A stretch of DNA of 64,000 nt from the NCBI RefSeq assembly GCF_007005445.1, contig NZ_CP041387.1, positions 3,435,001 through 3,499,000 on the forward strand, given 5' to 3'. The notes below the pieces were generated by a model, which saw only the letters and a program-made list of their open reading frames with translations, ran no database searches and had not been told where the DNA came from. Position numbers and translations under genes: made by a program. Source of the stretch: Rhodopseudomonas palustris. Lineage in GTDB: Bacteria; Pseudomonadota; Alphaproteobacteria; Rhizobiales; Xanthobacteraceae. Each line of letters begins with the position of its first letter. Position 1 is the first letter of the stretch. Below are positions 2,159-22,257 of the stretch, piece by piece.

Positions 2159-3526
2159 CTATACGGCCGCTTCCGGCACGAAGTGCCGGAACTTGCCGCG
2201 CCAGCCCTGCAGCTTCAGCTCGCTCGGCGCGATGAACTCGATGCCGGTGGCATCGCCCCACCAGCCGCTGAGCCGGCCGCGGATGCCTTCGACGTCGGCG
2301 CCGTCTTCGGGCACGATGCGGAATACCGGCTTGCCGTCACGCATCACGATCTGGAACTCCTTGATGCCGCCGACGCGGTCGAGCACGTCCTGGACGTAGT
2401 GGGTGGGCAACTGGCGGCCGGCGATCTGGATGACGTCGTGCACCCGGCCCATCAGTTCGTGAATGAAGAAACCGTCGGCGGTCTCGCTCAGCACCGCGAG
2501 ATCGCCGGTACGATAGCGGATCAGCGGCATCAACCGGTTCTTCAGCGTGGTGATCATCAATTCGCCGCGGCTGGCGCCGGGCACGTCCTCAAGCTCGGCA
2601 CCGCCTTCGACCGGCGTCACTTCAGGCCAGCACAAGGGATCGAACACATCGAGCGCAGAGCGATCCGGGTCGGTCTGGTACGCGACCACGCCGGCTTCGG
2701 CGAGGCCGTAGCGATCGATCACCTGGCAGCGGAGCGCGCGCGCGATGGTCTCACGCTGCTTCTTCTCGAGTAGCTCGCCAGAGGATTCGAAGATGCTGAA
2801 CGCCTTGCCGCCGCCGTGCCGCGCCTCCACGTGCAGCGCGAGCTGATAGATCGTCGACGGATGGCCGTGGACCAGATGCGGCCGGATCGACCGGATCTTC
2901 TGCCAGATTGTTTCGAGCTCGTCCGGCTCGAAGGTCGAGAAGAAGATGTTGTAGCGGTTCATCGCGAAGCACTTGAAGTCTTCGCGCAGCTTCGCCTTCC
3001 ATGGAATCGCGTCCGGAAACTTGCTGGCGAAATGCAGCTCCGAGCGCATGTGGTGATTGCCGATACGGGCGCGGGCGTAGCGCACCACAGCGGAGGTCCA
3101 GTCGGCGCCGTCCTGATCGTAGTAGATGTGCGCCGACGGACCGGTCGAGCCGCCGGTCTTGGCGTCGAACTTCTTGAAACCCGCGTGGTCGCTGCGCAAC
3201 AGCCGCTCGCCCTCCGACCGAATGATGTCCTTGGTCAGATGCGGAATATCCATCCAGTATTTCGGATCGCGCAGGAGATTCTCGGGATCGAAGCGGATGT
3301 TGGAGAACAGGTCGCGATAATACGGAACGTTGGCGGCGGCGAACCGCACCATGTCGACCGCCTCCGCCCACGAGTGGGCGCGCCGCTGCGCGAACGGCAG
3401 CGCCATTTCCGCCGCAAACAGCCGCCGCTTCGACCTGATATCACGCCCCTCGAGACGCTCAGCGATCGGGTAGGCGACCAGACCGGCAGCCAGCCCCTTC
3501 ATGCCGTTCACGACTAGACGAAGCAT
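2159..3526 (-). CDS. PaaK/CapK-like adenylate-forming enzyme of polysaccharide biosynthesis
   Basis: 455 residues, related to phenylacetate-CoA ligase and the CapK proteins found in capsule and exopolysaccharide loci. TGGSTG at 124-129 is the phosphate-binding loop of the ANL superfamily, and a later YGLAEAG segment matches the second adenylation motif. The chosen ATG (MLRLVVNG) has a GGGG run about 8 bases upstream. The frame stays open for 44 more residues, but that extension is arginine- and cysteine-rich and does not resemble the family. The family probably activates an acid for transfer onto a sugar or cell-wall polymer; its substrate is not established here. It is the fourth gene of the rfbB-to-wecB operon. 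Confidence 0.75.
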   Translation of the reverse strand: MLRLVVNGMKGLAAGLVAYPIAERLEGRDIRSKRRLFAAEMALPFAQRRAHSWAEAVDMVRFAAANVPYYRDLFSNIRFDPENLLRDPKYWMDIPHLTKDIIRSEGERLLRSDHAGFKKFDAKTGGSTGPSAHIYYDQDGADWTSAVVRYARARIGNHHMRSELHFASKFPDAIPWKAKLREDFKCFAMNRYNIFFSTFEPDELETIWQKIRSIRPHLVHGHPSTIYQLALHVEARHGGGKAFSIFESSGELLEKKQRETIARALRCQVIDRYGLAEAGVVAYQTDPDRSALDVFDPLCWPEVTPVEGGAELEDVPGASRGELMITTLKNRLMPLIRYRTGDLAVLSETADGFFIHELMGRVHDVIQIAGRQLPTHYVQDVLDRVGGIKEFQIVMRDGKPVFRIVPEDGADVEGIRGRLSGWWGDATGIEFIAPSELKLQGWRGKFRHFVPEAAV

Positions 3527-3675
3527 CTCGACCCCATTTCGCGTCTTGCGACCGAACATCAAGCAGGCGGGAACGTGCGCGCCCCGTCGAACCCAACAAC
3601 CGAAATGGCCGGTGCGACCGCAACGCTGCTGATTACACCCGATGGAGAGGCGAGGCAATCAAGCGCCCCGCTCCG

Positions 3676-4693: not shown

Positions 4694-5569
4694 TCAGTCG
4701 GCGATTCTCTCGAGACAGACTTTTAGCCGATCGCCCCACGGCTTCGGCGCGATGCCGAAAGCGTCGTTCAGCCGGCCGCACGACAGTTGCGAGTTGGCGG
4801 GCCGTTTCGCCGGGGTCGGATACTCCGCGGTGGTGATCGGAACGACGGACCGTGGGACGCGGCGACCGGCGCGGGCGGCCTCGGCGAAGATCGCCTGCGC
4901 GAAGCCGAACCAGCTCACGGCCCCGCTGCCGGCATAGTGAAATACCCCCGCGTGCCGGGCGCCTGCTCCCAACTGTGCCACGATCGCCAGACAGGTCTCG
5001 GCAATGTCGGCCGCATAGGTCGGATTGCCGACCTGATCATCGACGACGCGCACCTCGTCGCGCTCGCGACCGAGCCGCAGCATGGTGCGGACGAAATTCT
5101 GCCCCTGCTCGTAATACACCCAGGCGGTGCGCAGCACGACCGCCTGCGGATGCTGCTGCATCACGAGGCGCTCGCCTTCCGCCTTCGAGGCGCCATAGGC
5201 GCCGAGCGGCGCCAATGGATCGCGCTCGCCATAGGGACCATGCGCAGTGCCGTCGAATACGTAATCGGTGGACAGATGCACGAACGGCAGGCCACGTCCG
5301 GCGCAAACCTTGGCCATCAGGCCCGGCGCTTGCGCGTTCAGGGCAAACGCCGCATCGCGGTCGGTCTCGGCCTTGTCGACCGCCGTATAGGCTGCTGCGT
5401 TGACAATCGCAGTGGCGCCGATCCGGGTCACGGCATCGACCAGCGCCGTCTCGTCGAGCACGTCGATATCGGCGCGGCCGAGAGCCTGCAGCGCCACGCC
5501 GCGCGCGGCCGCCTCGCGTGCCAGCGCGGTGGCGACCTGACCGCTGCGGCCGAATACCAGCACCGTCAT
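4694..5569 (-). CDS. rfbD: dTDP-4-dehydrorhamnose reductase
   Basis: Last step of dTDP-L-rhamnose synthesis, NAD(P)H-dependent reduction of dTDP-4-keto-L-rhamnose. 291 residues from the ATG at 5569 (MTVLVFGRSGQ); a GTG three codons earlier is possible. Visible features are the VFGRSGQVA nucleotide-binding loop, NAAAYTAVDKAE, STDYVFDG and the catalytic YGASK, all typical of RmlD. The ending ANSQLSCGRL is also typical. It follows rfbB by 42 bases in the same orientation. No dTDP-glucose synthase (rfbA) is visible, so it must be supplied from elsewhere. Confidence 0.95.
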   Translation of the reverse strand: MTVLVFGRSGQVATALAREAAARGVALQALGRADIDVLDETALVDAVTRIGATAIVNAAAYTAVDKAETDRDAAFALNAQAPGLMAKVCAGRGLPFVHLSTDYVFDGTAHGPYGERDPLAPLGAYGASKAEGERLVMQQHPQAVVLRTAWVYYEQGQNFVRTMLRLGRERDEVRVVDDQVGNPTYAADIAETCLAIVAQLGAGARHAGVFHYAGSGAVSWFGFAQAIFAEAARAGRRVPRSVVPITTAEYPTPAKRPANSQLSCGRLNDAFGIAPKPWGDRLKVCLERIAD

Positions 5570-5611
5570 CGGGTGCACCGCTTGAAGACAATCGGCATCG
5601 CCTGCGACCGC

Positions 5612-6643
5612 TCAGGCCGCGCCGTGCAACAGCGGCTTCCACCACCATTCATTGGTAAGATACCAGTCGACGGTCGCCTCGATGCCGGAGTCGAAATCAT
5701 GTTCGGCTTTCCACCCCAGTTCGGTTTCGATCTTGGTCGCATCGATCGCATAGCGGAAATCATGGCCGGCACGATCGACCACGAACTCGATCAGCGACGC
5801 GTATCCGCCGGCCGGCGCATCGGACGTTTTGGCATCGAGCAGGGTACAGATGCGCTTGACCAGATCGATGTTCCGACGCTCGTTGCGGCCGCCGATGTTG
5901 TACTGCTCGCCGAGCCGGCCGCGGCTGACGACGAGCCAAAGCGCCTGCGCGTGATCCTCGACATACAGCCAATCGCGAATATTGAGGCCCTGCCCGAAAA
6001 CCGGCAGCGACTGCCGCGCGAGCGCGCGGGTGATGGTGCGGCCGACCAGCTTTTCCGGATACTGATACGGCCCGTAATTGTTCGAGCAGTTCGAGATCAA
6101 CGCCGGAAAACCGTAGGTGTGAAACCAGGCCCGGACCAGATGATCGGATGCCGCCTTCGAGGCAGAATAGGGGGAATTCGGCGCGTAGGGCGTCGTTTCG
6201 ACGAAGTAGCCAGTGTCCCCCAGCGTGCCGTAGACCTCGTCGGTCGAGACGTGCAGAAACCGGAACTGGTCGCGCGCTTCGCCGCTCAGTTCGTCGCGAT
6301 AGGCGCGTGCAGCTTCCAGCAGCCGAAAGGTGCCTACGATATTGGTATCGATGAAATCTCCGGCGCCGCGGATCGAACGGTCGACATGGGACTCGGCGGC
6401 CAGATGCATGACATGCGTCGGCCTGGCATCGCGCAGCAGCGCGCTCACCAGTTCACGATCGCCGATGTCGCCCTGAACGAAGCGATAGCGCGGATTGTCT
6501 TCGATGGTTTTCAGCGACTGGAGATTGCCGGCATAAGTGAGCTTGTCGAGATTGACCACCTGTGCGTCGGTGCGCTCGATCAGATATCGGCAGACCGCAG
6601 ACCCGATAAACCCGGCGCCACCCGTCACGAAAACCGTCGTCAT
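5612..6643 (-). CDS. rfbB: dTDP-glucose 4,6-dehydratase
   Basis: Converts dTDP-glucose to dTDP-4-keto-6-deoxyglucose with tightly bound NAD+. 343 residues, full family length. Visible features are TGGAGFIGS at the N-terminus, [17 protein letters not shown] and the catalytic YSASK. It is the first gene of a six-gene minus-strand operon (rfbB, rfbD, glycosyltransferase, PaaK-like, deacetylase, wecB). It is transcribed divergently from the glycosyltransferase gene near 6866, with an AT-rich stretch in between that probably holds the promoters. Confidence 0.96.
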
Positions 6644-8172: not shown

Positions 8173-10824
8173 CTATTTCCGGCTGAGAATTTCGTCGATG
8201 CGGCGTGCATAGCGCCGGCCGCACGCCTGCAGGCTGTAATTATCGAGCATGTTCTGTCGCGCGCGCTCCACCTTGGCGGCCGCAATGTTCGGATCGTCGA
8301 ACAGCGCCTTCATGTGCGCGGCCGCGATTTCGGTCGATGGCTCGAACCACTCCTGGTCGTTCCAGAAGATGTACTGATCTTCGAGCACCGGGATGACGTG
8401 CCCATCAACGATGAAGGCGGTGTCCTCGGTGCAGAAGTCGCGATTGCCGCTGTAGTTCGACGCGATCACCGGCGTCCGCAGCAGCATCGCCTCGGCCATG
8501 ATGCGGCCGAACCCTTCGGAGCGGTGCAACGAGACCAGCGCATCGGCGGACTCGATCAGTTGCATCACCCGGGCCCGATCCCAGGTCTCGTAGATCAGAT
8601 TGATCCGGGGATCTTCCGCCGCAAACATCTTCAGCGCGAGCAGGATCGGGTTGCGGTCGGCATTCATCGCCTTGATGGTCAGACCGACATCGTGGCGCTC
8701 GCCCTTCGGGAACGCCTGCTGAAACGCCCGTATGGTGCCGAGCGGGTTCTTTCGTGCGAAATACGAAAACCCGTCGAACACGAAGACGAAGTTGAAGCGG
8801 TCGCGCGGAAGCTCCGGAACAGCGTCACGCCCAGGCAGCGTCGAGGCGTCGACCGTCACCGGGAGCGGCATGTGAATGACGGGCTTCGAGGTCACCGGTA
8901 ACAGGCTGTCGACGATGAAGCGGGTCGAGGACCAGATTTCATCGACGATCAGGTGTGGCAGCGAGACCCGTCGCGGCCAGCGCGGCAGTTCCCAAGGCCA
9001 GTAGCCGATCACATGGTCCGCGGCGAATCCTCCGAGCCCCTCGAACTGCTGCTCGGCCAGCATGTCGAAGGCCGAGAATGCGAAAATCCGGATTTGCGCG
9101 TCCTGAAGATCGGGCCGAATATAGGGCTCGAACTTCTCGGCCGCCTTATTCGGGCCCGGAAGCCACCTCCTGGTATGAAACAGGCTGAGACTCAGCGAGG
9201 TTTCCTGCTGCAGACTCTCGAACACAGTTCGCGCGTCTTCGCCCTGGCCGCTTTCCGCACGCGGAAAGCCGACGATTTCAACCTCGACCCGCTGACGCCC
9301 GGCTGTGGCTGCTCTCGACTCGATCCCGGGGTGCACGCGCAGGTTTTGCGCCTTGTATCCGACCCGGTAGATGTACTGGCGTTGCTCGCTCCACCACCAG
9401 GACACGTGCCCCGACGACGATTGCGGGAGCGGCTCGTCCGACTGGATCTGCCGGGCGATCCTGCACAGCTCTTCATCAAGCTCCTTCACCTCACCCCGGT
9501 GGATGCGGAAGGTCTCTTCGAACCCGGTCAGGCGCCCCGACGACCACAGCCCCAACAGGCTTTCGAAGAAGTTCAGCCTCCCGGCAGACGAAGACAGGTC
9601 ATAGCCTAACGCAGGCTGCTCATCGCGCAGCCGTAGAAGCGCATTGGTGATCGGAACGTCGACATCCTGCACATAGGCCAGCGTCGGCGCGAACAGATAT
9701 TCCCGCTCGAGAATCGCGAACGCGACATGTTCGACGCGGCCGCCCTTGTCCCACCAGGACAGAAAAGCCGACCGGCCGTGCGGTGTCGCCAGATCGAAGG
9801 CTTCGCCCAGCCGGGGCTCAGTTCGGTGGAGCCGGGCGAGATATCCCGGGATCTCTGCCGGCGCCGCGCCCGACAGCGCTCCGAAATTCGCCTCGAACCA
9901 GAACGCTCGAACTATCCGCACGAGATGAAGCTTCGCGCCGAGCAAGCCAGGGCGCGCCGCCAAATTTCGCGCGGCCCGCAACCACCAGCCGAACACCGTG
10001 GCGTCGGGCAGCCCCTCGTCGTCTTCGATCAGGACCAGTTCCGAACGGATGCCGATGGCCGCCTGCGCGATAGCCGGATGCAGGGTCTTCTCACCGCAAT
10101 AGGTCGTCCCGGAACCAAGCTCGGTCGGCCGCAGCCAGCCCAGGAATATCCGCAATGCCAGACGATATTCCAGCAAACCGGATCTGAGGAACCAGGAGAC
10201 GAAATTGAGATACCCTTCGTCTGTTCCGACATCGAAGGTTGCCCGCAGTTCGGCGCGGGCATCGTAAATCAAGCCGAGCAGCCGCAACGGCGGGAGCGCC
10301 CCATCCTGCGGCCATTCCGGAATAACCGATGTTGCGTAGGCGGCGATGCGTTCGAACAATCCCGGAGCAAGCGCGGGATGAGTTTCCAGGATACGCTCGA
10401 TATTCGCGATCCAGTACTGGAAATGCTCGGGACGTTTCCGGCTCAGCGCCAGCGAGGCCGGCAAGGCGACCCGGAAACGTTCGGCTGTGAATTCGCGTTC
10501 GCAGACGAAGAACTGCACGAGCCAGTCGTAAGGGAGACGATCCTCATTTGCGATGTCCTGATCGATGCAGAAAGGACCGCGGTCGAGCAGATAGGCGGCG
10601 GTCAACGCATCCACTTCGGTCGAACTCGACTCGATTGCGGTCAACCACCAGGCGAGCAGGACATCGGCGTCCGCAGCCGAACGCATCGGCACTCTTTGAT
10701 GAAAATCCGGCCCCGCCGACTGCCACTTCAGCAACAGAGATTTAGGAAGCCCGAACCCCAGAGAGCAATCCGGATACGCGCTATCGGGCCGCGACAGCTC
10801 TTCCGACAGTTGGTCGACATTCAT
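8173..10824 (-). CDS. Large glycosyltransferase, GT4 domain with a repeat-bearing N-terminal half
   Basis: 883 residues, more than twice the usual GT4 size. The last 240 or so residues form a GT4 donor domain (FVFDGFSYFARKNPLG, then SEGFGRIMAEAML with E-x7-E). The N-terminal 450 residues are not a recognised enzyme. They contain a recurring motif (Asp-hydrophobic, then Gly-Arg/Tyr, Phe, Ser/Glu, aromatic) at about 198-216, 344-362 and 409-430, with related Trp-rich segments near 50-60 and 275-282. These look like helical repeats that could bind glycan or partners. Similar multi-domain transferases occur in O-antigen and exopolysaccharide loci. Transcribed alone, convergent with the preceding gene. 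Confidence 0.8.
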   Translation of the reverse strand: MNVDQLSEELSRPDSAYPDCSLGFGLPKSLLLKWQSAGPDFHQRVPMRSAADADVLLAWWLTAIESSSTEVDALTAAYLLDRGPFCIDQDIANEDRLPYDWLVQFFVCEREFTAERFRVALPASLALSRKRPEHFQYWIANIERILETHPALAPGLFERIAAYATSVIPEWPQDGALPPLRLLGLIYDARAELRATFDVGTDEGYLNFVSWFLRSGLLEYRLALRIFLGWLRPTELGSGTTYCGEKTLHPAIAQAAIGIRSELVLIEDDEGLPDATVFGWWLRAARNLAARPGLLGAKLHLVRIVRAFWFEANFGALSGAAPAEIPGYLARLHRTEPRLGEAFDLATPHGRSAFLSWWDKGGRVEHVAFAILEREYLFAPTLAYVQDVDVPITNALLRLRDEQPALGYDLSSSAGRLNFFESLLGLWSSGRLTGFEETFRIHRGEVKELDEELCRIARQIQSDEPLPQSSSGHVSWWWSEQRQYIYRVGYKAQNLRVHPGIESRAATAGRQRVEVEIVGFPRAESGQGEDARTVFESLQQETSLSLSLFHTRRWLPGPNKAAEKFEPYIRPDLQDAQIRIFAFSAFDMLAEQQFEGLGGFAADHVIGYWPWELPRWPRRVSLPHLIVDEIWSSTRFIVDSLLPVTSKPVIHMPLPVTVDASTLPGRDAVPELPRDRFNFVFVFDGFSYFARKNPLGTIRAFQQAFPKGERHDVGLTIKAMNADRNPILLALKMFAAEDPRINLIYETWDRARVMQLIESADALVSLHRSEGFGRIMAEAMLLRTPVIASNYSGNRDFCTEDTAFIVDGHVIPVLEDQYIFWNDQEWFEPSTEIAAAHMKALFDDPNIAAAKVERARQNMLDNYSLQACGRRYARRIDEILSRK

Positions 10825-11119: not shown

Positions 11120-12097
11120 ATGAGCGACCCACGGGTATTGATCACCACTTATCCCGAGGCGTTTCTGCACCGCGGCGGCGGTGAGTTCGAAATCGTCGAG
11201 CTTGCCAACAATCTCCGTCTGCTCGGCTTCAGGGTCGATCTCTACGGTCCGAATTCGCAGCCGATCTCGTTCTACGACACGGTCCTGCATTTCTCGGTCG
11301 TCGAATCCGGAATGAACCTGTTTCGGGCGCTCAAGAGTTCCGCAAAGCGCATCGTGCTGGTCCCCAACCTGTGGTGGATCGGGCAACCGAGCGACCACGA
11401 CAGGGCGAATGCCGAAGAGTTTTTCCGCCTCGCCGACCAGATCGTCTTCAAATCGACGGCGGAGCGCGACAACGTCAGCCGCTATGCAGGGTTTCCGGAT
11501 TACAAGGCCGTGCTCTGTCCATGGGGCGTCGACCGTTGCTACGCCGAGCCCGCCGACCCAGGGTTGTTCAAATCGCATCATCAACTCGATCGATACATCC
11601 TGTGGCTGGGCATCATCGAGGAGCGCAAGAATCAGTTGACGGCCATTCATGCGCTGCGTGACAGCAAGGTGCCGCTCGTGCTGGTCGGAGACTATCGCGA
11701 CCGGCATTATTACGAGGCCTGCCGGCGCAGCGCTCCGTCGCACTTCAGATTCATCCCGCACATCCAGCCGAAATCCGAAATGCTGCGATCGGCGTTGCAG
11801 AATTGCGACGTCTATCTCGAGGCTTCGCTCGAGCCGGCTGGAATGTCGGCGATGGAAGCCTATCTGGCCGGTCGGCCGATCGTGGTGTCGGAGGGAGACT
11901 GGACCACGGAGCATTTCGGCGACGAGGTGATCGCGATCGATCCGAAGTCCGAGGAAGCGATTGCGGAGGGCGTCAGGCGGGCGTTGAGCGGGAACTCACC
12001 ATCGGCCCGCACGCGCCGCATCAATCTACGGAATTTGCTTCCGGAGAACCTGGAGCCTCTCGGTCGAGTGCTCGCCGGCGGCCGGGGGCGCTCATGA
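11120..12097 (+). CDS. Glycosyltransferase family 4
   Basis: 325 residues from the ATG at 11120 (MSDPRVLITTYPEAFLHRGGGE). The frame is open further upstream, but those residues are low-complexity and unlike the family. The donor domain is visible as YILWLGIIEERKNQ and the E-x7-E-type segment SLEPAGMSAMEAYL. It is a paralogue of the gene at 3676-4650, with matching TYPxAF and GGGE segments and the same length. It is followed 49 bases later by the sugar-phosphate cyclase gene on the same strand, so the two may be co-expressed. Confidence 0.82.
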   Translation: MSDPRVLITTYPEAFLHRGGGEFEIVELANNLRLLGFRVDLYGPNSQPISFYDTVLHFSVVESGMNLFRALKSSAKRIVLVPNLWWIGQPSDHDRANAEEFFRLADQIVFKSTAERDNVSRYAGFPDYKAVLCPWGVDRCYAEPADPGLFKSHHQLDRYILWLGIIEERKNQLTAIHALRDSKVPLVLVGDYRDRHYYEACRRSAPSHFRFIPHIQPKSEMLRSALQNCDVYLEASLEPAGMSAMEAYLAGRPIVVSEGDWTTEHFGDEVIAIDPKSEEAIAEGVRRALSGNSPSARTRRINLRNLLPENLEPLGRVLAGGRGRS

Positions 12098-12146: not shown

Positions 12147-13307
12147 ATGAAAATGGAACATCCGCCTTCCGACGTTTCGCTCGCATCGAGCTTCCGTGCG
12201 GACAATCACATGAACACCCGGGTTCTGGTGGCACAAAACGGCCTCTGGAATCTCGATAGTCTCGGCGTTCTCGACAATGTGCGGAAGGACTCCAAGCACC
12301 TTCTGATTACCGACAAGAACGTCGAAAAGCTCTATCTACGTCCGGTTCTGGAAAGCATCGAACGGAGCGGGCGCCTCGTCCGGACGATCGTCGTGCCGCC
12401 GGAAGAATCGTCGAAGAGCTTCGAGGTGTATGCACGCCTGGTACAAACCGCGCTCGACTACGGCATCGACAAGTACTCCGTGATCTTCAGCCTGGGCGGA
12501 GGATTGGTGAACAATCTCGCAGGCTTTCTCGCCTCGACCTTGTATCGCGGAATCGGACTGATCCATCTGCCGACGAGCCTGCTCGCCCAGGTCGACGCCG
12601 CGATCGATTTCAAGCAGGCTCTCAACTTCAGTCACGGCAAGAACCTGATCGGCAGCTTCTATCCCGCGTCCAACGTGCTGATCGATCCGATCGCGTTGCG
12701 GACGCTGAACCCGCGCCTGATCCGGTGCGGGCTCGCGGAATCGATGAAGCACGCGCTGTGCCAGGACAGCGACTTCCTCAACTACATCATGTCCCACCAC
12801 AATCATCTGAGCGAACTCGACTTCTTGACGGAGACGGTGGTTCGTTCGGTGAAGCTCAAGCTCGAAATGATGGCGCCGAGCCTGCATTCCGATCGCGAAG
12901 AGGTGGTCAAGCAGTACGGACATGCGGTCGGGCATGCGGTCGAACACCTCTCGGGAGGCGAAATCTACCACGGCGAAGCGATCTCGATCGGAATGTGCGT
13001 TTCGGCGGAGATCGGACGGCTGCTGGGCGTCACCGACGAAGAGACCGTCGACATTCACTACCGTTCGCTGGCGATGCTCGGCCTGCCGACCACGGTCCCG
13101 TACGAATTCTCGCTCGGCGACATCTGGGAAAAGGTTCGCTACGACAAGCACTTCTTCCGGGACCGCGCCTATGTCGGGCTGCTGCGGACGGTCGGAGTTC
13201 CGAGCAACAGCGGCGAGGACGGACTGCACGGGCACTGGGTGTCGCGTGAGGTGCTGTTCGAAGCGATCGAAGTCAATCGACGCGCGGGCCTGCGATCCGC
13301 CTACTAG
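12147..13307 (+). CDS. Sugar-phosphate cyclase (2-deoxy-scyllo-inosose synthase-like / dehydroquinate synthase superfamily)
   Basis: 386 residues. The superfamily folds a sugar phosphate into a carbocycle using NAD+ and a divalent metal. Visible are the NAD loop GGG at 117-119, RGIGLIHLPT, the substrate-binding K156 in FKQALN, GKNLIGSFYP, the metal ligand E198 in GLAES with K201, H259 and H263 in the YGHAVGH helix, and metal ligand H275 in YHGE. The KQALN...GKN...YP pattern matches aminoglycoside 2-deoxy-scyllo-inosose synthases rather than dehydroquinate synthase, which has GGKTAVN and YQP there. The residue three before H259 is Gln256; dehydroquinate synthases have Asn there and inosose synthases have Glu. 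This may therefore be a separate subgroup with its own product. Its place in a glycan locus suggests a cyclitol or carbocyclic sugar. The alternative is a second, divergent AroB. Confidence 0.75.
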   Translation: MKMEHPPSDVSLASSFRADNHMNTRVLVAQNGLWNLDSLGVLDNVRKDSKHLLITDKNVEKLYLRPVLESIERSGRLVRTIVVPPEESSKSFEVYARLVQTALDYGIDKYSVIFSLGGGLVNNLAGFLASTLYRGIGLIHLPTSLLAQVDAAIDFKQALNFSHGKNLIGSFYPASNVLIDPIALRTLNPRLIRCGLAESMKHALCQDSDFLNYIMSHHNHLSELDFLTETVVRSVKLKLEMMAPSLHSDREEVVKQYGHAVGHAVEHLSGGEIYHGEAISIGMCVSAEIGRLLGVTDEETVDIHYRSLAMLGLPTTVPYEFSLGDIWEKVRYDKHFFRDRAYVGLLRTVGVPSNSGEDGLHGHWVSREVLFEAIEVNRRAGLRSAY

Positions 13308-13574
13308 ACGCCCTAGCGCCTCGGCTTCATAGGGCCCGCACGGCACGTCAACTGCCGTCCGTCACAACGGGCGCTACTTTACGTCAGCACTGTGACGGTC
13401 ACGCGCCGACGTAACCGCATTGGCCGGAGCCCCCCTGAATCCGCACCCGTTTTTTGGACTTGATATTAGAACTAATTAAAGGACAGATGGACCATTGATT
13501 CCGGCTGTGATAAGCACTGCGTTGAAATTCATTCTCCCCTCGACGGCCCTTCAGCCGCATTGAATTGGTCAGAA
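13308..13574 (+). promoter_or_regulatory. Spacer with an AT-rich promoter-like patch
   Basis: The 267-base gap ahead of the tandem GT2 gene has a locally low-GC segment at about 13449-13482 (tttttggacttgatattag and aactaattaaa) in GC-rich surroundings. This suggests a promoter for the 13575-18599 gene run. No exact -35/-10 spacing fits well. I see no gene in it. Confidence 0.3.
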
Positions 13575-15233
13575 ATGTCCACCGCGAAGACAACCGCTCG
13601 TCACGACGCATCTGACCCGTACATCTGTTTGATCAGCATTCTGGTACCCGTCTACAACACGCCACCGGACGTCCTCGACGCGACGATCCAGTCGGTGCTC
13701 GCGCAGACCTTTTCCGACTGGGAACTTTGTATTTGCGACGACTGCTCGACGGACCCGCAAACCCTGTCTGTGCTCGACAGCTACAAGGGCACCGACCGAC
13801 GGATCAAGATCGTGCGGGCTCCGACAAATCTCAACATTTCCCGCGCGACGAATCTCTGCGCCGAGATAGCGACCGGCGAGTTCGTCGGATTCCTCGATCA
13901 TGACGACGTCCTGGAGCCTGACGCGCTCGCGGAAGTCGCGGCCGTGCTTCAGCGCGACGCGGACGTTGACGTGCTCTACACCGACGAAGACAAGCTAGAA
14001 CCCGACGGCAGCCTGACCGAGCCCTACTTCAAGCCCGACTGGTCGCCCGAGCATCTGACTTCGGTGATGTATGTGCTGCATTTCACCGTCGTCCGGAAGA
14101 GCCTGTTCTTCGACGTCGGGATGTTGCGGCACGAATTCGCCGGTGCGCAGGACTACGATCTCGCGCTTCGGGTGTGCGGTCGTGCCCGCAAGATCGTGCA
14201 TATTCCGAAGATTCTGTATCACTGGCGCAAGATCCCCGGTTCGGCCGCAGCTGCGGTCGACGCCAAGCCGGCCGCGCTGATCAACGCGCGGGCGGCGCTG
14301 CTGGACTATGCGCGGCAGCGCGATCCCGAAGCCACCGTCGACCTCGGCCAACTGCACGGACTGTTTCGTCTCAACTGGAGCGCGGGACGCCGACCCGATC
14401 CGGTGACATTGCTGATCCTGACGGATTCGCGGCGTCGCGACGTTCCTGGCCGCGGCGACATTCTGATGGTCGATCACTTCATCGACAGCATCTTCGAAAA
14501 ATCCACCTTCCGCGCATTCAAGATCGTGGTGGTCGACAACGGCAATCTGCCCGCCGATATCCGCGCCAAGTTCGAGAAGCTGGGCGTACGTGTCCACTCC
14601 TACGCATTCGAGCCGCCGTTCAACTTCTCCAACAAGGCCAATTTCTCGATCGACAAGGTCGAGACCGAGGACGTCATCATTCTGAACGACGATCTCGAAG
14701 TGATCAGCCCGGATTGGATCGAGGCGCTGCTCGGCTTCTCACGCCAGCCCGAGATCGGTGCGGTGGGCTGCCGTCTGCGCTTCGCCGACGATCGGATCCA
14801 GCACGCCGGGATCGCGCTCGGATTGACCTCGCCCTGTGGTCATATCTTCTACAACCGTCCCGCCGACGCGCCGGGCTATCTCGGCTTCACTCATCTGGTC
14901 AGAAACTACTCTGCCGTGACGGGCGCGGTGCTTGCGACCACGATGTCCAAGCTGCGCGAGGTCGGCGGTTTCGACGAGAATCTGAGAATCGACTACAACG
15001 ATATCGATCTGTGCCTTCGACTCGGCGAGAAGGGATACCGTATCGTCTATACGCCCCATGCCGAGCTCTACCATTTCGAGCGAAGTTCTTCGGCCAGAAA
15101 CGCGCCGGATGACAGCGACACCGCCAATTTCGTTGCGAGGTGGAAGGGGGTGCTACAGCGGGATCCCCACATGAATCCGAATTTCGTTGGCGATCGCGAA
15201 AAGCTCTCCGACAACCTCGATCTGATCTTCTAG
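13575..15233 (+). CDS. Tandem-domain glycosyltransferase family 2
   Basis: 552 residues from the ATG at 13575; a TTG five codons earlier is also possible. Two GT-A modules are visible. The first (about residues 15-260) has SILVPVYNTP, CDDCSTD, the DHDD metal/nucleotide motif and TDEDK. The second (about 275-530) starts around TLLILTDSRR and has VVVDNG, ILNDDLEV and DYNDIDLCLR. Such twin GT2 proteins commonly act as bifunctional transferases, often rhamnosyltransferases, in O-antigen or exopolysaccharide assembly. It heads a four-gene plus-strand run ending at 18599. Confidence 0.88.
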   Translation: MSTAKTTARHDASDPYICLISILVPVYNTPPDVLDATIQSVLAQTFSDWELCICDDCSTDPQTLSVLDSYKGTDRRIKIVRAPTNLNISRATNLCAEIATGEFVGFLDHDDVLEPDALAEVAAVLQRDADVDVLYTDEDKLEPDGSLTEPYFKPDWSPEHLTSVMYVLHFTVVRKSLFFDVGMLRHEFAGAQDYDLALRVCGRARKIVHIPKILYHWRKIPGSAAAAVDAKPAALINARAALLDYARQRDPEATVDLGQLHGLFRLNWSAGRRPDPVTLLILTDSRRRDVPGRGDILMVDHFIDSIFEKSTFRAFKIVVVDNGNLPADIRAKFEKLGVRVHSYAFEPPFNFSNKANFSIDKVETEDVIILNDDLEVISPDWIEALLGFSRQPEIGAVGCRLRFADDRIQHAGIALGLTSPCGHIFYNRPADAPGYLGFTHLVRNYSAVTGAVLATTMSKLREVGGFDENLRIDYNDIDLCLRLGEKGYRIVYTPHAELYHFERSSSARNAPDDSDTANFVARWKGVLQRDPHMNPNFVGDREKLSDNLDLIF

Positions 15234-15255: not shown

Positions 15256-16905
15256 ATGCCTGAGACGGATATCGCCGCTTCCGACCAAGCCGAAATCGCC
15301 AAGGTCGCGGAGCGCTGGAGCGATCACACCCGAAATTGTGCAGAAGGCAGCGACGAGCGGTCGGCGATCGCGCGTTCCGGTCTGTTCGACGGCGAGTTCT
15401 ATCTTGCAGCCTACTCCGACGTGAAGGCGGCCGGCATCGATCCGCTTCAGCACTATGTCGAGTATGGCGCGCGCGAGATGCGCGCACCCAACCCATGGTT
15501 CGATCCGAACTACTATCGCTCCCAGTTTGTCGACTTCCCCCGCTCGACGAATCCCCTGCTCCACTACGCGCAGGAGGGAGAGCGCCTCGGTTTCAAGCCC
15601 CATCCGAAGTTCGACCCGCGACGCTACCAGACGCTCTATCCGGTGGTCTCGGGGGCGAAGGTTCCGCCGCTCTGGCATTTTCTGAACTTCGGCTCGATGG
15701 ATCACATGGAGGCGCGGCGCTACACGCCGCCGCGCCGCATCGATCCGGTGAAGCCGGCGCTGCGCAAATGGACACGCCCGACCTCCGTTCCATTGGGAGT
15801 GAATTTCGTCTCGCCGCTGTCCCGGATTTCCGGGCTCGGCGTCAGCGCACGCGGTTTCGTCGACGCCCTGCAGACGGCCGATATCCCTGTTCATCTGATC
15901 GAATGGACCGAGGGTTTCGAACATCAGGAGACTGTCGACAGCGGCCTGAAGGGCGTCGCTGAGCTTCAGCCGATCAACCTAATTCATATGAACGCCGACA
16001 TCTTCCATCTGGTGTCGAACGGGCTGAGACAGACGGGCGTTCTCAGCCCCGACCGCTACAATATCGGGATCTGGTATTGGGAGCTCGCCGCATTCCGTCA
16101 CGAGTGGATGCCGTGGGTCGCGCTGCTCGACGAGATCTGGTGCGCATCGTCGTTCAATGCCCGCTCCGTCGATGTCGTCTCGGCGCGACCGGTGAATCTG
16201 CTCAGGCCTGCGGTGGTTCCGCCGGTGGCGCCCGGCCAATTCTCCCGATCGCATTTCGGGCTGAACGAAGACAGCCTGGTGTTCTTCTACAATTGCGATC
16301 TGTCGAGCCGAATCGATCGCAAGAATCCGGAGGCGCTCGCGCGCGCCTTCCGTGAGGAGTTCGGCGACGATCCGCGCTATCAGCTCGTGCTGAAAATCGG
16401 CATGGCCGACCGCCATCCCAACTCCACGCGTCGGGTGGCGAGTGCCACCGGCGGTGCGACCAACATCCTCCTGATGGACCGCACGCTGACAGACCCGGAA
16501 CTGGCCGACCTGCTGCATCACACGTTCGCTTACGTTTCGCCGCATCGCTCCGAGGGGCTCGGACTGACGATCATCGAGGCGATGCTGAGCGGCTGCCCGG
16601 TGATCGCCACGCCTTACGGCGGGGCGGCTGATTTTGTCGTCGATGGCGTCGCGAGGCCGCTGGCCCACCGGCTGACCGAGATCGAGGTCACCGACGAACC
16701 CTACCGACGCGGCTGCGTTTGGGCCGATCCGATCGTGGCCGACATCCGCCGCGCGATGCGCGAGCTGGCCGATGCTCCCGACGCCGCCCGTGCGCTCGGT
16801 CAGCGGGGGAAGGCGCACGCCGAGGCGCTGTTTTCGCGCGAAGCCACGTCGCGGGCGGTCCGCACCCGGCTGGACGAGATCTGGCGAACGCACACCGCCG
16901 GCTGA
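15256..16905 (+). CDS. Glycosyltransferase family 4 with three N-terminal FD-Y repeats
   Basis: 549 residues. Residues 42-72, 80-108 and 117-146 are three copies of a 30-residue repeat: F-D, three residues, Y, a variable stretch, then P-L/L-x-H-Y/F-x-x-x-G. This repeat is known from large bacterial glycosyltransferases and probably mediates binding. The rest is a GT4 enzyme (NFVSPLSRISGLGVSARGF, GIWYWELAAF, and HRSEGLGLTIIEAML with the E-x7-E signature). The GGAAAGAG run before the ATG serves as ribosome site, 22 bases after the tandem GT2 gene, so the two are probably co-transcribed. Confidence 0.87.
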   Translation: MPETDIAASDQAEIAKVAERWSDHTRNCAEGSDERSAIARSGLFDGEFYLAAYSDVKAAGIDPLQHYVEYGAREMRAPNPWFDPNYYRSQFVDFPRSTNPLLHYAQEGERLGFKPHPKFDPRRYQTLYPVVSGAKVPPLWHFLNFGSMDHMEARRYTPPRRIDPVKPALRKWTRPTSVPLGVNFVSPLSRISGLGVSARGFVDALQTADIPVHLIEWTEGFEHQETVDSGLKGVAELQPINLIHMNADIFHLVSNGLRQTGVLSPDRYNIGIWYWELAAFRHEWMPWVALLDEIWCASSFNARSVDVVSARPVNLLRPAVVPPVAPGQFSRSHFGLNEDSLVFFYNCDLSSRIDRKNPEALARAFREEFGDDPRYQLVLKIGMADRHPNSTRRVASATGGATNILLMDRTLTDPELADLLHHTFAYVSPHRSEGLGLTIIEAMLSGCPVIATPYGGAADFVVDGVARPLAHRLTEIEVTDEPYRRGCVWADPIVADIRRAMRELADAPDAARALGQRGKAHAEALFSREATSRAVRTRLDEIWRTHTAG

Positions 16906-17033: not shown

Positions 17034-17786
17034 TTGACCGGACGGATTCTCATCACGGGCGCAGGGCGAGGCATCGGGTTCGCGATCGCGCAGGTGCTGG
17101 CCCGGGACGGTTTTTCACTGGCGCTGGTGACGAAAACCGAGGCCTCGGCTTCGAAACTGCGCGCAGAGCGCTTCGTCGCGGAAGCGGACGCTGTCGTCGT
17201 CGCATTCGATCTTGCCGATCCCACGGCTTTGGGCACGTTCGTCGCGGAATGGCGGGAGCCGCTTTGGGGCGTTGTCCACAATGCCGGCATCTGCGAAACG
17301 GCGGGCATTGCCGACTCTGACCGCGACCCCTGGCGGGACGTGCTCGCCGTCAATCTTGAGGCGCCCTACCGACTGACCCGCGGACTGTTACCGCGGATTT
17401 CGCGGCCCGGCCGAATCGTCACCATCGGGTCGCAGCTTTCGGTCGAGGGCCGCGCCGGCTACGGCGCCTATTGCGCCTCGAAATTCGGCCTGATCGGACT
17501 CACCAAGTGCTGGGCCAAGGAGCTCGGCCGCGACGGCGTCACCGTCAACGCCGTATGTCCGGGCTGGGTCGACACCGAAATGACCAACAGCGACATCGAT
17601 CGCCTCGCCGCCGAGCAGGGACGCGATGCGGCAGCGTTCAAGGCCGAGATCGCCGATCCGCTCGAACTGAAGCGCTTCAACAGTCCCGAAGAGGTCGCCG
17701 AACTGGTGGGGTTTCTGATGTCGGAGAAGTCCTCCGGTATCACCGGCCGGGCCTGGCTGATGCAGACGGTGTGGAATCAGCAATAG
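17034..17786 (+). CDS. Short-chain dehydrogenase/reductase
   Basis: 250 residues starting at TTG (MTGRILITGAGRGIG), with GGGAAA just upstream; no in-frame ATG lies close to the fold start. TGAGRGIG at 8-15 binds NAD(P), HNAG at 82-85, the catalytic Ser is about 133, and Y146 and K150 form YxxxK. C-terminal PGWVDTEM is typical. It resembles 3-oxoacyl-ACP reductases in sequence, but its setting between a GT4 gene and a DUF5672 gene suggests reduction of a sugar, cyclitol ketone or acyl precursor. It is a candidate partner of the cyclase at 12147, which is inference only. The next gene starts on the base after its stop. Confidence 0.8.
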   Translation: MTGRILITGAGRGIGFAIAQVLARDGFSLALVTKTEASASKLRAERFVAEADAVVVAFDLADPTALGTFVAEWREPLWGVVHNAGICETAGIADSDRDPWRDVLAVNLEAPYRLTRGLLPRISRPGRIVTIGSQLSVEGRAGYGAYCASKFGLIGLTKCWAKELGRDGVTVNAVCPGWVDTEMTNSDIDRLAAEQGRDAAAFKAEIADPLELKRFNSPEEVAELVGFLMSEKSSGITGRAWLMQTVWNQQ

Positions 17787-18599
17787 ATGCCGGCCGTCAC
17801 TCCAGTCGTCGTCGTTCCCGTATACAAAGAGAACAACGAGCCCGAAGCGCGAACCTCCCTTCGACATCTGAGACGCTTTCTCGGCCGTTATCGGCTGGTG
17901 CTGGCAAAACCTGCACATCTCGACTGGTCGGTCGAAGGGCTGGACAACGAAGTATTTCCCGATGAGAACTTTCAATCCCTCCACGGGTACAATCGTCTGC
18001 TGCTTTCACCGTCGTTCTATCGCCGCTTCGCCCAACACAGTCACATCCTGATCTACCAGCTCGACGCACTGGCGTTTCGCGACGAGCTGACCGAATGGTG
18101 CGAGAGCGACTACGACTATATCGGCGCAAGCTGGTACCCTCATCTGATCGAGAAATACATCGGCGAACCGTGGCCATTCGCCAAGATCGGAGCGGGCAAT
18201 GGCGGTTTCAGTCTGCGCCGCGTATCCGCCTTCATGTCCCATCTGGAGAACCGACGGCCGACGTTGCGTCACGCGCTCGACCGGCTGCTGGAAGGCGATC
18301 TCGACGCAGCAAACCGTCTCTTGCGCTACCGCAAGCATTTGACGCCGTCGAACTACGTCCAGCACAAGATGCTGGCTGAAGACGTGTATTGGGGTGTTTT
18401 CGCGCCGCTGATCGACCCGTCATTCCGGGTCGCGCCGGTCGAAGTCGCGAACCGGTTCTCGTTCGAATACGATCCGAATTTCCTGCTGCAGCAATCCGGC
18501 GGGCGCATCCCGTTCGGGTGTCACGCCTGGTATCGCTTCCAGGATGCCCGCACGTTCTGGCAGAGCCGACTGCTGCCGCCGGACGGCAGTCCGGCCTGA
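17787..18599 (+). CDS. DUF5672 family protein, putative glycan-modifying enzyme
   Basis: 270 residues. VVVVPVYKENNE at the start, then YQLDALAFRDELTEWC, YDYIGASWY and GNGGFSLRR are hallmarks of DUF5672. The family resembles GT-A glycosyltransferases (a DxD-like QLDALAF region and the GNGGFSLR segment) and occurs in polysaccharide loci, but I know of no established reaction. The ATG abuts the stop of the dehydrogenase gene (tagATG), so translational coupling is likely. It ends the plus-strand run, convergent with the CDP-sugar operon 6 bases away. Confidence 0.78.
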   Translation: MPAVTPVVVVPVYKENNEPEARTSLRHLRRFLGRYRLVLAKPAHLDWSVEGLDNEVFPDENFQSLHGYNRLLLSPSFYRRFAQHSHILIYQLDALAFRDELTEWCESDYDYIGASWYPHLIEKYIGEPWPFAKIGAGNGGFSLRRVSAFMSHLENRRPTLRHALDRLLEGDLDAANRLLRYRKHLTPSNYVQHKMLAEDVYWGVFAPLIDPSFRVAPVEVANRFSFEYDPNFLLQQSGGRIPFGCHAWYRFQDARTFWQSRLLPPDGSPA

Positions 18600-19534: not shown

Positions 19535-20080
19535 TTACGGCGTCAGCGCCAGATCGCCCAGGCCAGGCAGAACCGCGTCGCGCGCGCTGATCACCTCCGG
19601 CGGGTGCGGCCAGACGATCCCGACCTGCGCATCGTTCCAGTTCAAGCCGCGGGCAAGATCGGCCTGGTAAGGCTGTGCGATCTGATACGCCACCATGGCC
19701 TCGTCGCTCAGCGTCAGAAAGCCGTGGGCGAAACCCTGCGGGATGTACAGCGCCAGATGATTGTCCGCGGTCAGTTCCTGGCCGAACCATTGCCCGAACG
19801 TCTTCGATCCGGGGCGGATATCGACCGCAACGTCATAGATCGCGCCCTGCACGACGCGGACCAGCTTGTCCTCCATCCGCGGCGCCGCCTGGAAATGCAT
19901 CCCACGCAGCGTATGGCGGCGCTGGTTGAAGGAAAAGCTGCACTGATCGATCTCCGGATTGAGGCCTCGCTCGCGGAACGTCGTGGCGCAGAAGGTGCGC
20001 ATGAAGAATCCGCGCTCGTCGCGAAACGGCTCGGGCTCGATCACGAAGCAGCCGTCGAGCGGAGTCGGGACGATCTTCAT
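19535..20080 (-). CDS. rfbC: dTDP-4-dehydrorhamnose 3,5-epimerase family (first copy)
   Basis: 181 residues, cupin-fold epimerase of RmlC size. FRDERGFFMRTF, QRRHTLRGMHFQ with the catalytic His, and VDIRPGSKTFGQW are family motifs. The ATG overlaps the methyltransferase stop (ATGA, 20077-20080), so it is translationally coupled. Placement within a CDP-hexose operon suggests that it acts on the CDP-4-keto sugar after C-methylation, as a 3- or 5-epimerase, rather than on dTDP-rhamnose. A second copy lies at 23507. Confidence 0.85.
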   Translation of the reverse strand: MKIVPTPLDGCFVIEPEPFRDERGFFMRTFCATTFRERGLNPEIDQCSFSFNQRRHTLRGMHFQAAPRMEDKLVRVVQGAIYDVAVDIRPGSKTFGQWFGQELTADNHLALYIPQGFAHGFLTLSDEAMVAYQIAQPYQADLARGLNWNDAQVGIVWPHPPEVISARDAVLPGLGDLALTP

Positions 20081-21336
20081 GCGCGGACCGCGTCGACGAT
20101 CTTCGGCGTCGGGATCGGGATGATGAACTTGCCGCCCCAGTCGGCGATCGCCGCCATCTGCGCGGTGATTTCCTTCTCCAGATTCCACGGTAGAATCACC
20201 AGGTAGTCCGGCTTGGCCTCGGTGATCGCCTGCGGCGCCAGGATCGGCAAACGCGTGCCGGGCAGGAACATGCCCTGCTTGTGCGGCGACATGTCGACGG
20301 TGAAGTCGATCATGTCGGCGCCGACGCCGCAGTAGTTCAGCAGCGTGTTGCCTTTCGCCGGCGCGCCGTAGGCGGCGATGGTCTTGCCTTGGCGCTTGAG
20401 GTCGATCAGCAGCGAGAGGAAGGCCCGCTTGGTTTCGCGGACCTTCTCGGCGAACGCCAGATACGGCGCGTCGGTGTCGAGGCCGAGCCGTCGCTCGAGC
20501 TCGCGGACCTCCGCCAGACCGGGACCGTCGATGTGGCCGGCGTCCTTGCGGCAGGCGAACAGCCGCAGTGATCCACCGTGGGTCGGCAGTTGCTGGACGT
20601 CGAACACGCGCAGACCCTGCGCCGCGAAGATGCGCTCGCAAGCCAGCAGCGACAGATACGAGAAGTGCTCGTGATAGATCGTGTCGAACTGATTGAGCGC
20701 GAGCATGTTGGCGACATGCGGGAATTCGAAGGTGGCGACGCCCTCGGCGGCGAGCAGGATCGAGAAGCCTTTGACGAAATCGTTGATGTCCGGAACGTGG
20801 GCCAGCACGTTGTTGGCGGCGGTCAGCCGTGCGCGCTTGCCGCTCGCGACCAGTTCCTGCGCGGTCGCCGCGCCGAAGAACTTCACAATGGTCGGAATAC
20901 CGCGCTCTTCCTGCGCAACCTTGGCGACCGACGCGCTCGGCTCGATCCCGAGCACCGGGACGCCGGCCTTGTCGAAGTACTGCAGCAGATAGCCGTCGTT
21001 GCTGGCGATCTCGACGACGAGATCGGACGGGCCGATGGCGAAACGCCGCCGCATGTCCTCGGTATAGCGTTCGGCGTGGGCGAGCCACGACGTCGAATAC
21101 GAGGAGAAATACGCGTAGTCCTCACGGAACAGGTCGTCCGAGCGGAAGAAGTTCTGCAATTGCACCAGCCGGCACGATTCGCAGACGAACGTGCGCAGCG
21201 GATAGAACGGCTCCGGACCATCGACCCTGGATGCGGTCAGGTAGTCGTTGGAGATCGGCGTGCTGCCGAGATCCGCGACCAGAATCCGGAGCGGAGTCCC
21301 GCAATGTCTGCAAACGTGGCTTGCCGTATCAGTCAT
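20077..21336 (-). CDS. SAM-dependent C-methyltransferase of a 4-keto-6-deoxysugar
   Basis: 419 residues. The N-terminal zinc site is CRHC (9-12) with CESC (52-55). The SAM-binding core starts at EIASNDGYLL (about 109), and YHEHFSY (221-227) contains the catalytic-type His of the sugar 3-C-methyltransferases (TylCIII/TcaB9 family). A C-terminal Rossmann-like domain follows. The start ATG has AAGG about 10 bases upstream. The family adds a methyl group at C-3 of a TDP- or CDP-linked 4-keto-6-deoxyhexose, and rfbF and rfbG directly upstream provide CDP-4-keto-6-deoxyglucose. The product is therefore probably a 3-C-methyl branched sugar (inference). Confidence 0.85.
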   Translation of the reverse strand: MTDTASHVCRHCGTPLRILVADLGSTPISNDYLTASRVDGPEPFYPLRTFVCESCRLVQLQNFFRSDDLFREDYAYFSSYSTSWLAHAERYTEDMRRRFAIGPSDLVVEIASNDGYLLQYFDKAGVPVLGIEPSASVAKVAQEERGIPTIVKFFGAATAQELVASGKRARLTAANNVLAHVPDINDFVKGFSILLAAEGVATFEFPHVANMLALNQFDTIYHEHFSYLSLLACERIFAAQGLRVFDVQQLPTHGGSLRLFACRKDAGHIDGPGLAEVRELERRLGLDTDAPYLAFAEKVRETKRAFLSLLIDLKRQGKTIAAYGAPAKGNTLLNYCGVGADMIDFTVDMSPHKQGMFLPGTRLPILAPQAITEAKPDYLVILPWNLEKEITAQMAAIADWGGKFIIPIPTPKIVDAVRA

Positions 21337-21383
21337 GAACAAAATACCTTGGGGTGTGCCGCCGGATCGAACTCGGCCGGCTG

Positions 21384-22166
21384 CTACCAGATCTTCCACG
21401 GGGCCTTGGACGAGGTCCAGAGCTGCTCGAGATATTGCTTGTCGCGCAGCGTATCCATCGGATGCCAGAATCCGTGGTGCTTGTAGGCGCTGAGCTGACC
21501 GTCGCGCGCCAACCCTTCGAGCGGCTCGCGCTCCCAGATCGTGGCGTCGCCGTCGATGTACTTGAACACTTCGGGAGACAGCACGAAGAACCCGCCATTG
21601 ATCCAGCCGAGCTCACCGTCGGGCTTTTCCTGGAAGCTGGTGACACCGTCGTTGTCGTCGAAATTGAGGGCGCCAAATCGGCCCGGCGGGCTGACCGCGG
21701 TGATGGTCGCGAGCTTGCCATGGGAACGATGGAAGCTGAGCAATGCCGTAATGTCGACGTCGGCGACGCCATCGCCATAGGTCATACAGAAAGGAGCATT
21801 GCCGACATAGTCACCGACACGTTTGATGCGACCGCCGGTCATCGTCTCCGAACCCGTGTCCACCAACGTGATAGTCCAGTCTTCAGCGCGCTTTTTCTGA
21901 TATATGATCGAGTTGTCGGCAAAATTGAATGTGACGTCCGATTGATGCAGAAAGTAATTCGAGAAATACTCCTTGATCAGGTACCCCTTGTAGCCAAGGC
22001 ACACGACGAACTCTTTGATACCGTGTGCATGGAATATCTTCATAATGTGCCACAGGATTGGCAGGCCGCCGATTTCGACCAGCGGCTTTGGTCGCACAGA
22101 GGTCTCCTCTGCGATCCTAGTCCCCATGCCCCCCGCCAGAATGACGGCTTTGTTCACCACGTTCAT
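21384..22166 (-). CDS. rfbF: Glucose-1-phosphate cytidylyltransferase
   Basis: Makes CDP-glucose from CTP and glucose-1-phosphate. 260 residues, typical length. KAVILAGGMGTRIAEET at the N-terminus is the nucleotide-binding signature, with RPKPLVEIGG and MTYGDGVAD typical of RfbF. Second gene of the CDP-sugar operon, 91 bases after rfbG. The DNA at 21,840-22,250 is visibly less GC-rich than the neighbourhood (gatatatgatcgag, gaaaatactcc), consistent with acquisition by transfer. Confidence 0.93.
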   Translation of the reverse strand: MNVVNKAVILAGGMGTRIAEETSVRPKPLVEIGGLPILWHIMKIFHAHGIKEFVVCLGYKGYLIKEYFSNYFLHQSDVTFNFADNSIIYQKKRAEDWTITLVDTGSETMTGGRIKRVGDYVGNAPFCMTYGDGVADVDITALLSFHRSHGKLATITAVSPPGRFGALNFDDNDGVTSFQEKPDGELGWINGGFFVLSPEVFKYIDGDATIWEREPLEGLARDGQLSAYKHHGFWHPMDTLRDKQYLEQLWTSSKAPWKIW

Positions 22167-22257
22167 CAGGTTCAGCGCCCCTACGCAACAAAGGCAAGCC
22201 CGTGCCTCTAAGTTTCGACCGAATTAATCATAGCTCCAAATCGTCGAAAACAAGGGA

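Follow-up and report, generated by a model that had tools for sequence, protein, structure and literature searches.

Sugar-phosphate cyclases (SPCs) act through oxidation, beta-elimination of phosphate, re-reduction and an intramolecular aldol reaction. Those closest to the protein described here are AroB, a dehydroquinate synthase (DHQS), and the 2-deoxy-scyllo-inosose synthases (DOIS), of which BtrC (PDB 2d2x/2gru) is a solved example. An excerpt of PMC5133447 names DHQS, aminoDHQS, DDGS, DOIS, EEVS, EVS and EboD as family members and places SPCs of known role in the making of aromatic amino acids, aminoglycosides, acarbose, validamycin, cetoniacytone and sunscreen compounds (PMC5133447). 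Two surface sugars, bradyrhizose of Bradyrhizobium and caryose of Trinickia (formerly Pseudomonas) caryophylli, set a precedent for glycans of bacteria that contain carbon rings; the ring systems differ. In an excerpt of a 2016 report, bradyrhizose is tied to a cluster other than the present one, around a dTDP-glucose 4,6-dehydratase, and its biosynthetic genes are called unknown (PMC4743980). Among the matches listed in the openly licensed literature, no title or abstract start dealt with a cyclase of a surface-glycan locus, and in the same literature no paper on DOIS glutamate 243 was found.

Here we analysed a 64,000-nucleotide stretch of a Rhodopseudomonas palustris genome (the window; NZ_CP041387.1, positions 3,435,001 to 3,499,000). 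By sequence comparison, one of its genes belongs to a distinct clade of this known superfamily, which has a partner short-chain dehydrogenase (SDR) and lies mostly in surface-glycan loci. The reading that we hold with moderate confidence is that the cyclase would turn a carboxylate-free sugar phosphate into a keto-cyclitol, that the SDR would reduce it, and that the cyclitol would join an exported glycan. The features of the window, compared where indicated with the loci of nine relatives of the cyclase, are as follows:
2159–3658, minus strand: PaaK/CapK-like ligase homolog that reaches no equivalog cut-off; present in five of the nine relatives' loci
4694–6643: RmlB/RmlD-like pair, RmlD confirmed by Pfam
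8173–10824, minus strand: large protein of 883 aa with a C-terminal GT4 domain (PF00534)
11120–12097, plus strand: GT4 glycosyltransferase of 325 aa, start placed from the relatives; ends 49 bp before the cyclase
12147–13307, plus strand: SPC of 386 aa, in a clade beside DOIS, with Glu252 and Gln256 as the fixed differences of the clade
13560–15233, plus strand: glycosyltransferase with two family-2 domains (PF00535); 73–95% identical in two Rhodopseudomonas loci and PARB1
15256–16905, plus strand: GT4 glycosyltransferase (PF13692/PF00534); 62–83% identical in two Rhodopseudomonas loci and PARB1
17034–17786, plus strand: partner SDR of 250 aa, with the tetrad N107/S133/Y146/K150
17787–18599, plus strand: DUF5672 protein of 270 aa (PF18922, 3.5e-47)
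19535–23442, minus strand: RmlC-like epimerase, C-methyltransferase, CDP-glucose synthase (TIGR02623) and CDP-glucose 4,6-dehydratase (TIGR02622)
24220–27833, plus strand: GDP-mannose 4,6-dehydratase (Gmd, TIGR01472), an NAD-dependent epimerase/dehydratase (below every equivalog cut-off) and ManC (TIGR01479)
32191–35523: carbamoyl-phosphate synthase large chain (carB), by Pfam

The open reading frame at 12147–13307 is real and its coordinates are correct, as the initial annotation of this DNA had them. It matched the Pfam cyclase domains PF01761 (1.5e-32, 112 bits, cut-off 24.2) and PF24621 (9.3e-26, 90.9 bits, cut-off 27.6), and two congeneric genomes carry orthologs 96–97% identical to it; given these E-values and orthologs, the match is not due to chance. 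The annotation had held that the protein is not AroB, and the host indeed carries a separate aroB: its genome, a single contig of 5.04 Mb, has two PF01761 matches, namely the window cyclase and an aroB that sits after a shikimate kinase gene (the kinase was confirmed by Pfam). Against the AroB equivalog model TIGR01357 (cut-off 305 bits), the window cyclase scored 251 bits and failed, while the host's own AroB scored 367 and passed; four further clade members that were scanned scored 266–281, and two DOIS rows likewise remained below the cut-off (263 and 247 bits). The model TIGR04425 (AroB-related putative sugar phosphate phospholyase, cyclizing) was matched by the cyclase, yet at 173 bits, far below its cut-off of 400. 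On these comparisons, the window ORF is the second SPC of the genome and not AroB.

Orthologs of the cyclase were found in 3 of 16 congeneric genomes, the host counted, and in 5 of 391 family genomes (E <= 1e-50). The phylum sample (398 genomes, E <= 1e-52) contained an ortholog only in the host genome, and the host genome alone was matched by the clade profile in the class sample (385 genomes, E <= 1e-80). A pattern scan of the genome_contigs collection yielded 58 candidate stretches, 9 of which encode relatives, a lower bound in that the scan used two narrow patterns outside which more distant members may lie. The relatives come from Rhodopseudomonas AAP120, a Bradyrhizobiaceae MAG (PARB1) and a Rhodoplanes MAG; from Paraburkholderia atlantica, Ralstonia sp. 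ASV6 and Trinickia symbiotica; and from MAGs labelled Chloroflexi, Sulfurovum and Bdellovibrionales. In all, MAGs account for five of these loci. Together with the window protein and that of genome G002, they make up 11 clade rows. The clade is rare and patchy, occurring in Alpha- and Betaproteobacteria and in the last three MAGs so labelled. A phage or plasmid origin of the cyclase was considered and rejected: none of 76 pattern matches in viral_contigs was confirmed as a clade member, and all matches in the plasmid collection (115 records, 30 of the 115 listed) and the phage collection (15 records) were below 60% identity.

In the alignment, the clade averages 27% identity with DOIS and 28% with AroB, a ranking that is useless for deciding between the two, and therefore trees were used, on which the placement beside DOIS rests. 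In three trees (36, 41 and 35 rows), the 11 sequences formed a single clade (support 100/99, 100/100 and 100/99) that joined DOIS as its sister (99/97, 100/98 and 99/98), and the DOIS rows formed a clade of their own without it (100/98, 100/99 and 100/99). The DOIS rows, five in the first two trees and four in the third, comprise the solved BtrC, two annotated DOIS and two (SAT1 and NBC_00853) labelled DOIS-like from their position and neighbours. Two of the EEVS rows carry the annotation sedoheptulose 7-phosphate cyclase, whereas for the aminoDHQS row, for the EboD rows, and for DDGS (5tpr) and ValA (4p53) we used labels that are our own or that we take to be established. The third tree was built without six rows flagged as long in the 41-row tree, retaining BtrC, which was flagged too, and its long branches meet at the join of the clade with DOIS. 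In AU tests, a grouping of the clade with AroB alone was rejected (p 0.009; p 0.016 in the third tree), as was its nesting with BtrC and SAT1 (p 0.005); grouping with EEVS/DDGS/EboD was borderline (p 0.051), grouping with AroB plus aminoDHQS was not rejected (p 0.124), and DOIS with AroB gave p 0.079.

These results bear on whether the protein could be a diverged DHQS, that is, a spare AroB whose place in the locus is accidental or which makes a quinate-type decoration. The tolerated grouping with AroB plus aminoDHQS and an identity to AroB as high as that to DOIS would suit such an origin, but the clade stands apart from AroB alone in the AU test, falls short of a model that the host's own AroB passes, is steadily linked to one SDR, and has exchanged Arg264 for Glu and Asn268 for Gln in every member. 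We therefore regard a spare AroB as very improbable. AroB and the clade share PF01761/PF24621, all catalytic Lys and His residues, the metal ligands and a Lys at the K356 site; besides the two exchanges and the separate aroB, the setting also differs, as the window locus is not one of the aromatic pathway.

To compare active sites, residues were aligned and the sites given in A. nidulans DHQS numbering, with DOIS Glu243 counted on its own chain; we take these numbers, and the roles of the aligned residues as metal ligands or catalytic lysines, to be established. Analysis of the alignment revealed that the metal ligands E198, H259 and H275 of the window cyclase and its K156, K201 and K238 are kept in 11 of 11 clade members, with H263 also kept in the window protein. 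In A. nidulans numbers, all 11 keep R130, D146, K152, N162, E194, K197, K250, H271, H275, H287 and K356, the last column being unsure for the DOIS rows owing to an alignment gap. The E260 site is occupied by Ser, Ala, Asn, Asp or Glu in the clade and is acidic in every other row aligned.

Two sites set the clade apart. At the R264 site, all 11 members have Glu (Glu252 in the window), whereas the AroB rows have Arg (15/15) and the DOIS rows Gly or Ala (5/5). At the N268 site, the clade has Gln throughout (Gln256 in the window; 11/11), in contrast to Asn in AroB (15/15) and Glu in DOIS (Glu243; 5/5). The initial annotation had correctly placed E198, H259, H275, K156 and Q256, and its contrast of Asn, Glu and Gln at the last of these was borne out; it had overlooked the second invariant change, Glu252. 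It had also read FKQALN and GKNLIGSFYP, both present, as DOIS-like motifs. The first does discriminate, since KQA.N is common to the clade and all five DOIS rows while 11 AroB rows have KT[GA]I[ND]; the second does not, as GKNL[IV]G[AT]F also occurs in AroB rows.

The EEVS rows (n=3) have Ala, Lys or Arg at the R264 site, Asp at the N268 site, and Met and Pro at the K250 and H275 sites. These last two sites hold Lys and His in 11/11 clade members and 5/5 DOIS rows, and Met and Pro in EEVS (3/3) and DDGS (1/1). Taken over the K250, N268 and H275 sites, the clade thus reads Lys-Gln-His, as against Met-Asp-Pro in EEVS, Met-Ala-Pro in DDGS and His-Asp-His in EboD. The three groups share the superfamily chemistry with the clade, and the carboxylate-site Arg is lost in 6/7 of their rows; in the trees they are distant from it.

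The clade thus appears to keep the cyclase chemistry while exchanging the carboxylate-binding Arg for an acid. With Arg264, presumably the carboxylate ligand of DHQS, replaced in this way, DAHP is an unlikely substrate, and a hexose 6-phosphate is our first guess since Lys and His at the K250 and H275 sites resemble DOIS and not the sedoheptulose cyclases. Glu252 and Gln256 could also fit another substrate. One candidate is sedoheptulose 7-phosphate or another C7 sugar phosphate, cyclised to a valiolone-like C7 cyclitol that would then be reduced and activated as in pseudosugar pathways. The loss of the carboxylate-binding Arg suits any carboxylate-free sugar phosphate, and the AU test against the EEVS/DDGS/EboD grouping was only borderline; against it, the Met/Asp/Pro fingerprint of EEVS is missing from all 11 members, and the locus ORFs scanned showed no common cyclitol kinase or nucleotidyltransferase. 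We judge a C7 substrate to be quite unlikely.

A narrower reading, overlapping with the one we prefer, is that the protein is a true DOIS with Gln in place of Glu, which converts glucose 6-phosphate into 2-deoxy-scyllo-inosose, and that the SDR leads on to quercitol. The sister position in three trees, KQA.N, the shared Lys and His, and a YGH metal motif make the protein resemble DOIS. However, all five DOIS rows have Glu where all 11 clade members have Gln, Gly or Ala stands in DOIS where the clade has Glu, the DNKRGY motif of the five DOIS rows is absent from the window cyclase, nesting with BtrC and SAT1 was rejected, and the clade, unlike DOIS, lies mostly in glycan loci with an SDR partner. 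A true DOIS is therefore a possible but rather unlikely candidate, and the likeness to inosose synthases drawn in the initial annotation does not amount to an identification as one. Three parts of its interpretation stood: the protein is not AroB, the Gln marks it out, being fixed clade-wide, and a dehydrogenase belongs to it. Its further suggestion, a carbocyclic sugar built into the glycan, stays a proposal.

The dehydrogenase that the annotation had pointed to downstream is a genuine partner. Its gene begins 3.7 kb downstream of the cyclase, at 17034; the listed ORF start of 16719 is too early. Orthologs 47–92% identical occur in 8 of the 9 relatives' loci, from directly adjoining the cyclase in L050 to a distance of up to 8.7 kb in L043, and an ortholog is absent only from L044, a 10.5-kb contig. 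Among the family genomes, SDR orthologs were found in 4 of 391 (E <= 1e-80), with the best 6 SDR candidates scored in the genomes listed for the search; all four carry the cyclase, and the fifth genome with a cyclase is that of L044. Pairwise identities of cyclase and SDR correlate (r 0.92, 36 pairs), a value that partly reflects shared ancestry; support in both small gene trees is too low for co-transfer to be read from them. The protein matched PF00106/PF13561 and has the TGxxxGxG motif and the N107/S133/Y146/K150 tetrad of classical SDRs, the tetrad being invariant in 9/9; for the roles of TGxxxGxG and the Asn-Ser-Tyr-Lys tetrad we rely on what we take to be established.

Directly following the SDR is the DUF5672 protein, in which GNGGFSLR and PFGCHAW are invariant. 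It accompanies the cyclase–SDR pair in 4 of 9 loci (for example L048 10772–11569 and L050 11409–12242) and occurs in 3 of 16 congeneric genomes, exactly the three with the cyclase. A phmmer search of the PDB with this protein gave no match. The DUF5672 protein is an optional third member of the module, and we would guess that it is perhaps a glycosyltransferase.

The surroundings of the pair are those of a glycan locus. The GT4 glycosyltransferase at 11120–12097 stands immediately before the cyclase in the window and in 6 of 9 loci, at 54–92% identity, and glycosyltransferases or sugar-nucleotide genes lie within 10 kb of the cyclase in 8 of 9 relatives' loci. The 883-aa GT4 protein is 60–83% identical in two Rhodopseudomonas loci and PARB1, with a partial match of 32% in L050. 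An ABC-2 permease and an ATPase lie directly upstream of the window (L066 16692–18300); the best models for this ATPase are polysaccharide/teichoic-acid exporters, with scores below their cut-offs. ABC exporter genes occur in five loci (the window, L045, L046, L047 and L049), called by Pfam in the window flank, L045, L046 and L049, and in L047 by Pfam for the ATPase and by 78% identity to that of L045 for the permease. From the CDP-glucose synthase and dehydratase, the C-methyltransferase, the RmlC-like epimerases, Gmd, ManC and the RmlB/RmlD-like pair, 6-deoxy and perhaps C-branched sugars would be expected in the window glycan.

The cyclase and SDR could instead make a diffusible cyclitol, an osmolyte or signal, with glycan loci being merely hot spots of gene exchange. 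The copy in the Chloroflexi MAG (L048, 85–12330) is in no glycan locus that we could recognise: the genes for cyclase, DUF5672 and SDR stand near FlgK- and flagellin-type genes (by Pfam), and its other 10 ORFs of at least 200 aa, which are FlgK/flagellin-type, an MMPL protein, a sensor kinase, regulators, a phosphoesterase and a solute transporter, include no glycosyltransferase. This locus tells against a strict tie of the cyclase to polysaccharide loci, and the rare, patchy occurrence of the family (3/16 congeners) likewise agrees with a diffusible product. Glycan genes near the cyclase in 8/9 loci and the same GT4 immediately before it in the window and 6/9 loci argue the other way, and we consider a diffusible cyclitol unlikely. 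It is conceivable, as a guess, that the cyclitol of the Chloroflexi MAG enters a flagellar glycan.

Within the preferred reading, incorporation into an exported glycan, the cyclase would be a metal- and NAD-dependent SPC that probably follows the usual order of transient oxidation, beta-elimination of phosphate, re-reduction and intramolecular aldol reaction. It would act on a carboxylate-free sugar phosphate, of which a hexose 6-phosphate is the likeliest, and release a free keto-cyclitol. The SDR would then reduce the ketone to give a cyclitol of the deoxyinositol type; we guess that NADPH is the probable reductant. The cyclisation and reduction steps are proposed from the family chemistry and the pairing; we infer the substrate, product, cofactor and attachment. 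No cyclitol kinase or nucleotidyltransferase common to the loci was seen among the ORFs scanned in the relatives' loci, which makes acceptor of a glycosyl group a likelier role for the cyclitol than activated donor. The adjoining GT4 and/or the DUF5672 protein would use it as acceptor, and it would end in the glycan of the locus, presumably exported by the ABC transporter.

A bolder proposal, which we advance tentatively and rate somewhat short of even, is that the clade represents an undescribed SPC class with its own code, Glu at the carboxylate site and Gln at the product-determining site, which together with the reductase would supply a carbocyclic unit that several phyla regularly build into their exported surface glycans, and the Chloroflexi MAG perhaps into a flagellar glycan. 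If so, the cyclase would serve surface-glycan synthesis and offer a possible entry to how carbocyclic glycan units are made, together with a genetic handle on them. The glycans would then also contain a component that routine sugar analysis could overlook; in an excerpt of one LPS analysis, myo-inositol is the internal standard (PMC11841133). The invariant Glu and Gln lend themselves to testing how members of the SPC family choose substrate and product.

Kin of both known producers of carbocyclic sugars carry the clade, namely the Bradyrhizobiaceae MAG and Trinickia symbiotica. Neither Bradyrhizobium nor T. caryophylli is among the nine scan relatives, and the scanned contigs may not include the producers' genomes. 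Bradyrhizose was not supported as the product, given the other cluster implicated in the excerpt of PMC4743980, a scan without Bradyrhizobium and a cyclase in 5/391 family genomes. Caryose was set aside as a lead only: T. symbiotica has the cyclase, and T. caryophylli is not among the scan matches.

Several further observations were made on the loci. In the window, the genes at 19535–23442 suggest a CDP-linked C-methyl 6-deoxyhexose, separate from the cyclitol. The PaaK/CapK-like ligase homolog and an adjoining protein of about 520 aa (no Pfam match) form a conserved pair, 40–50% identical, at 574–3658 (minus strand) of the window and in the betaproteobacterial loci L045 (3218–6183), L046 (4179–7135) and L047 (3202–6173); the homolog occurs without its partner in L049, immediately before the cyclase, and in L050. 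With the flanking msrB/msrA and carB as reference points, the glycan cluster (window 8173–35523) appears inverted compared with the congeners L035 and L036, in both of which the gene of the 883-aa glycosyltransferase adjoins msrB.

Two plasmids carry cyclases of other kinds. On a plasmid of Streptomyces sp. NBC_00853 (L054, 7989–12629), a DOIS-like cyclase adjoins a DegT aminotransferase, a 'streptomycin biosynthesis protein' and an inosamine-phosphate amidinotransferase, a cluster that perhaps makes a guanidino-cyclitol from a DOIS-type product instead of myo-inositol. Plasmid pHS1 of the gammaproteobacterium Sodalis praecaptivus (L039, 3178–18091) has an aminocyclitol-type cluster with genes for DOIS, a DegT aminotransferase, a PIG-L deacetylase, a radical SAM protein, a glycosyltransferase and an ABC transporter.
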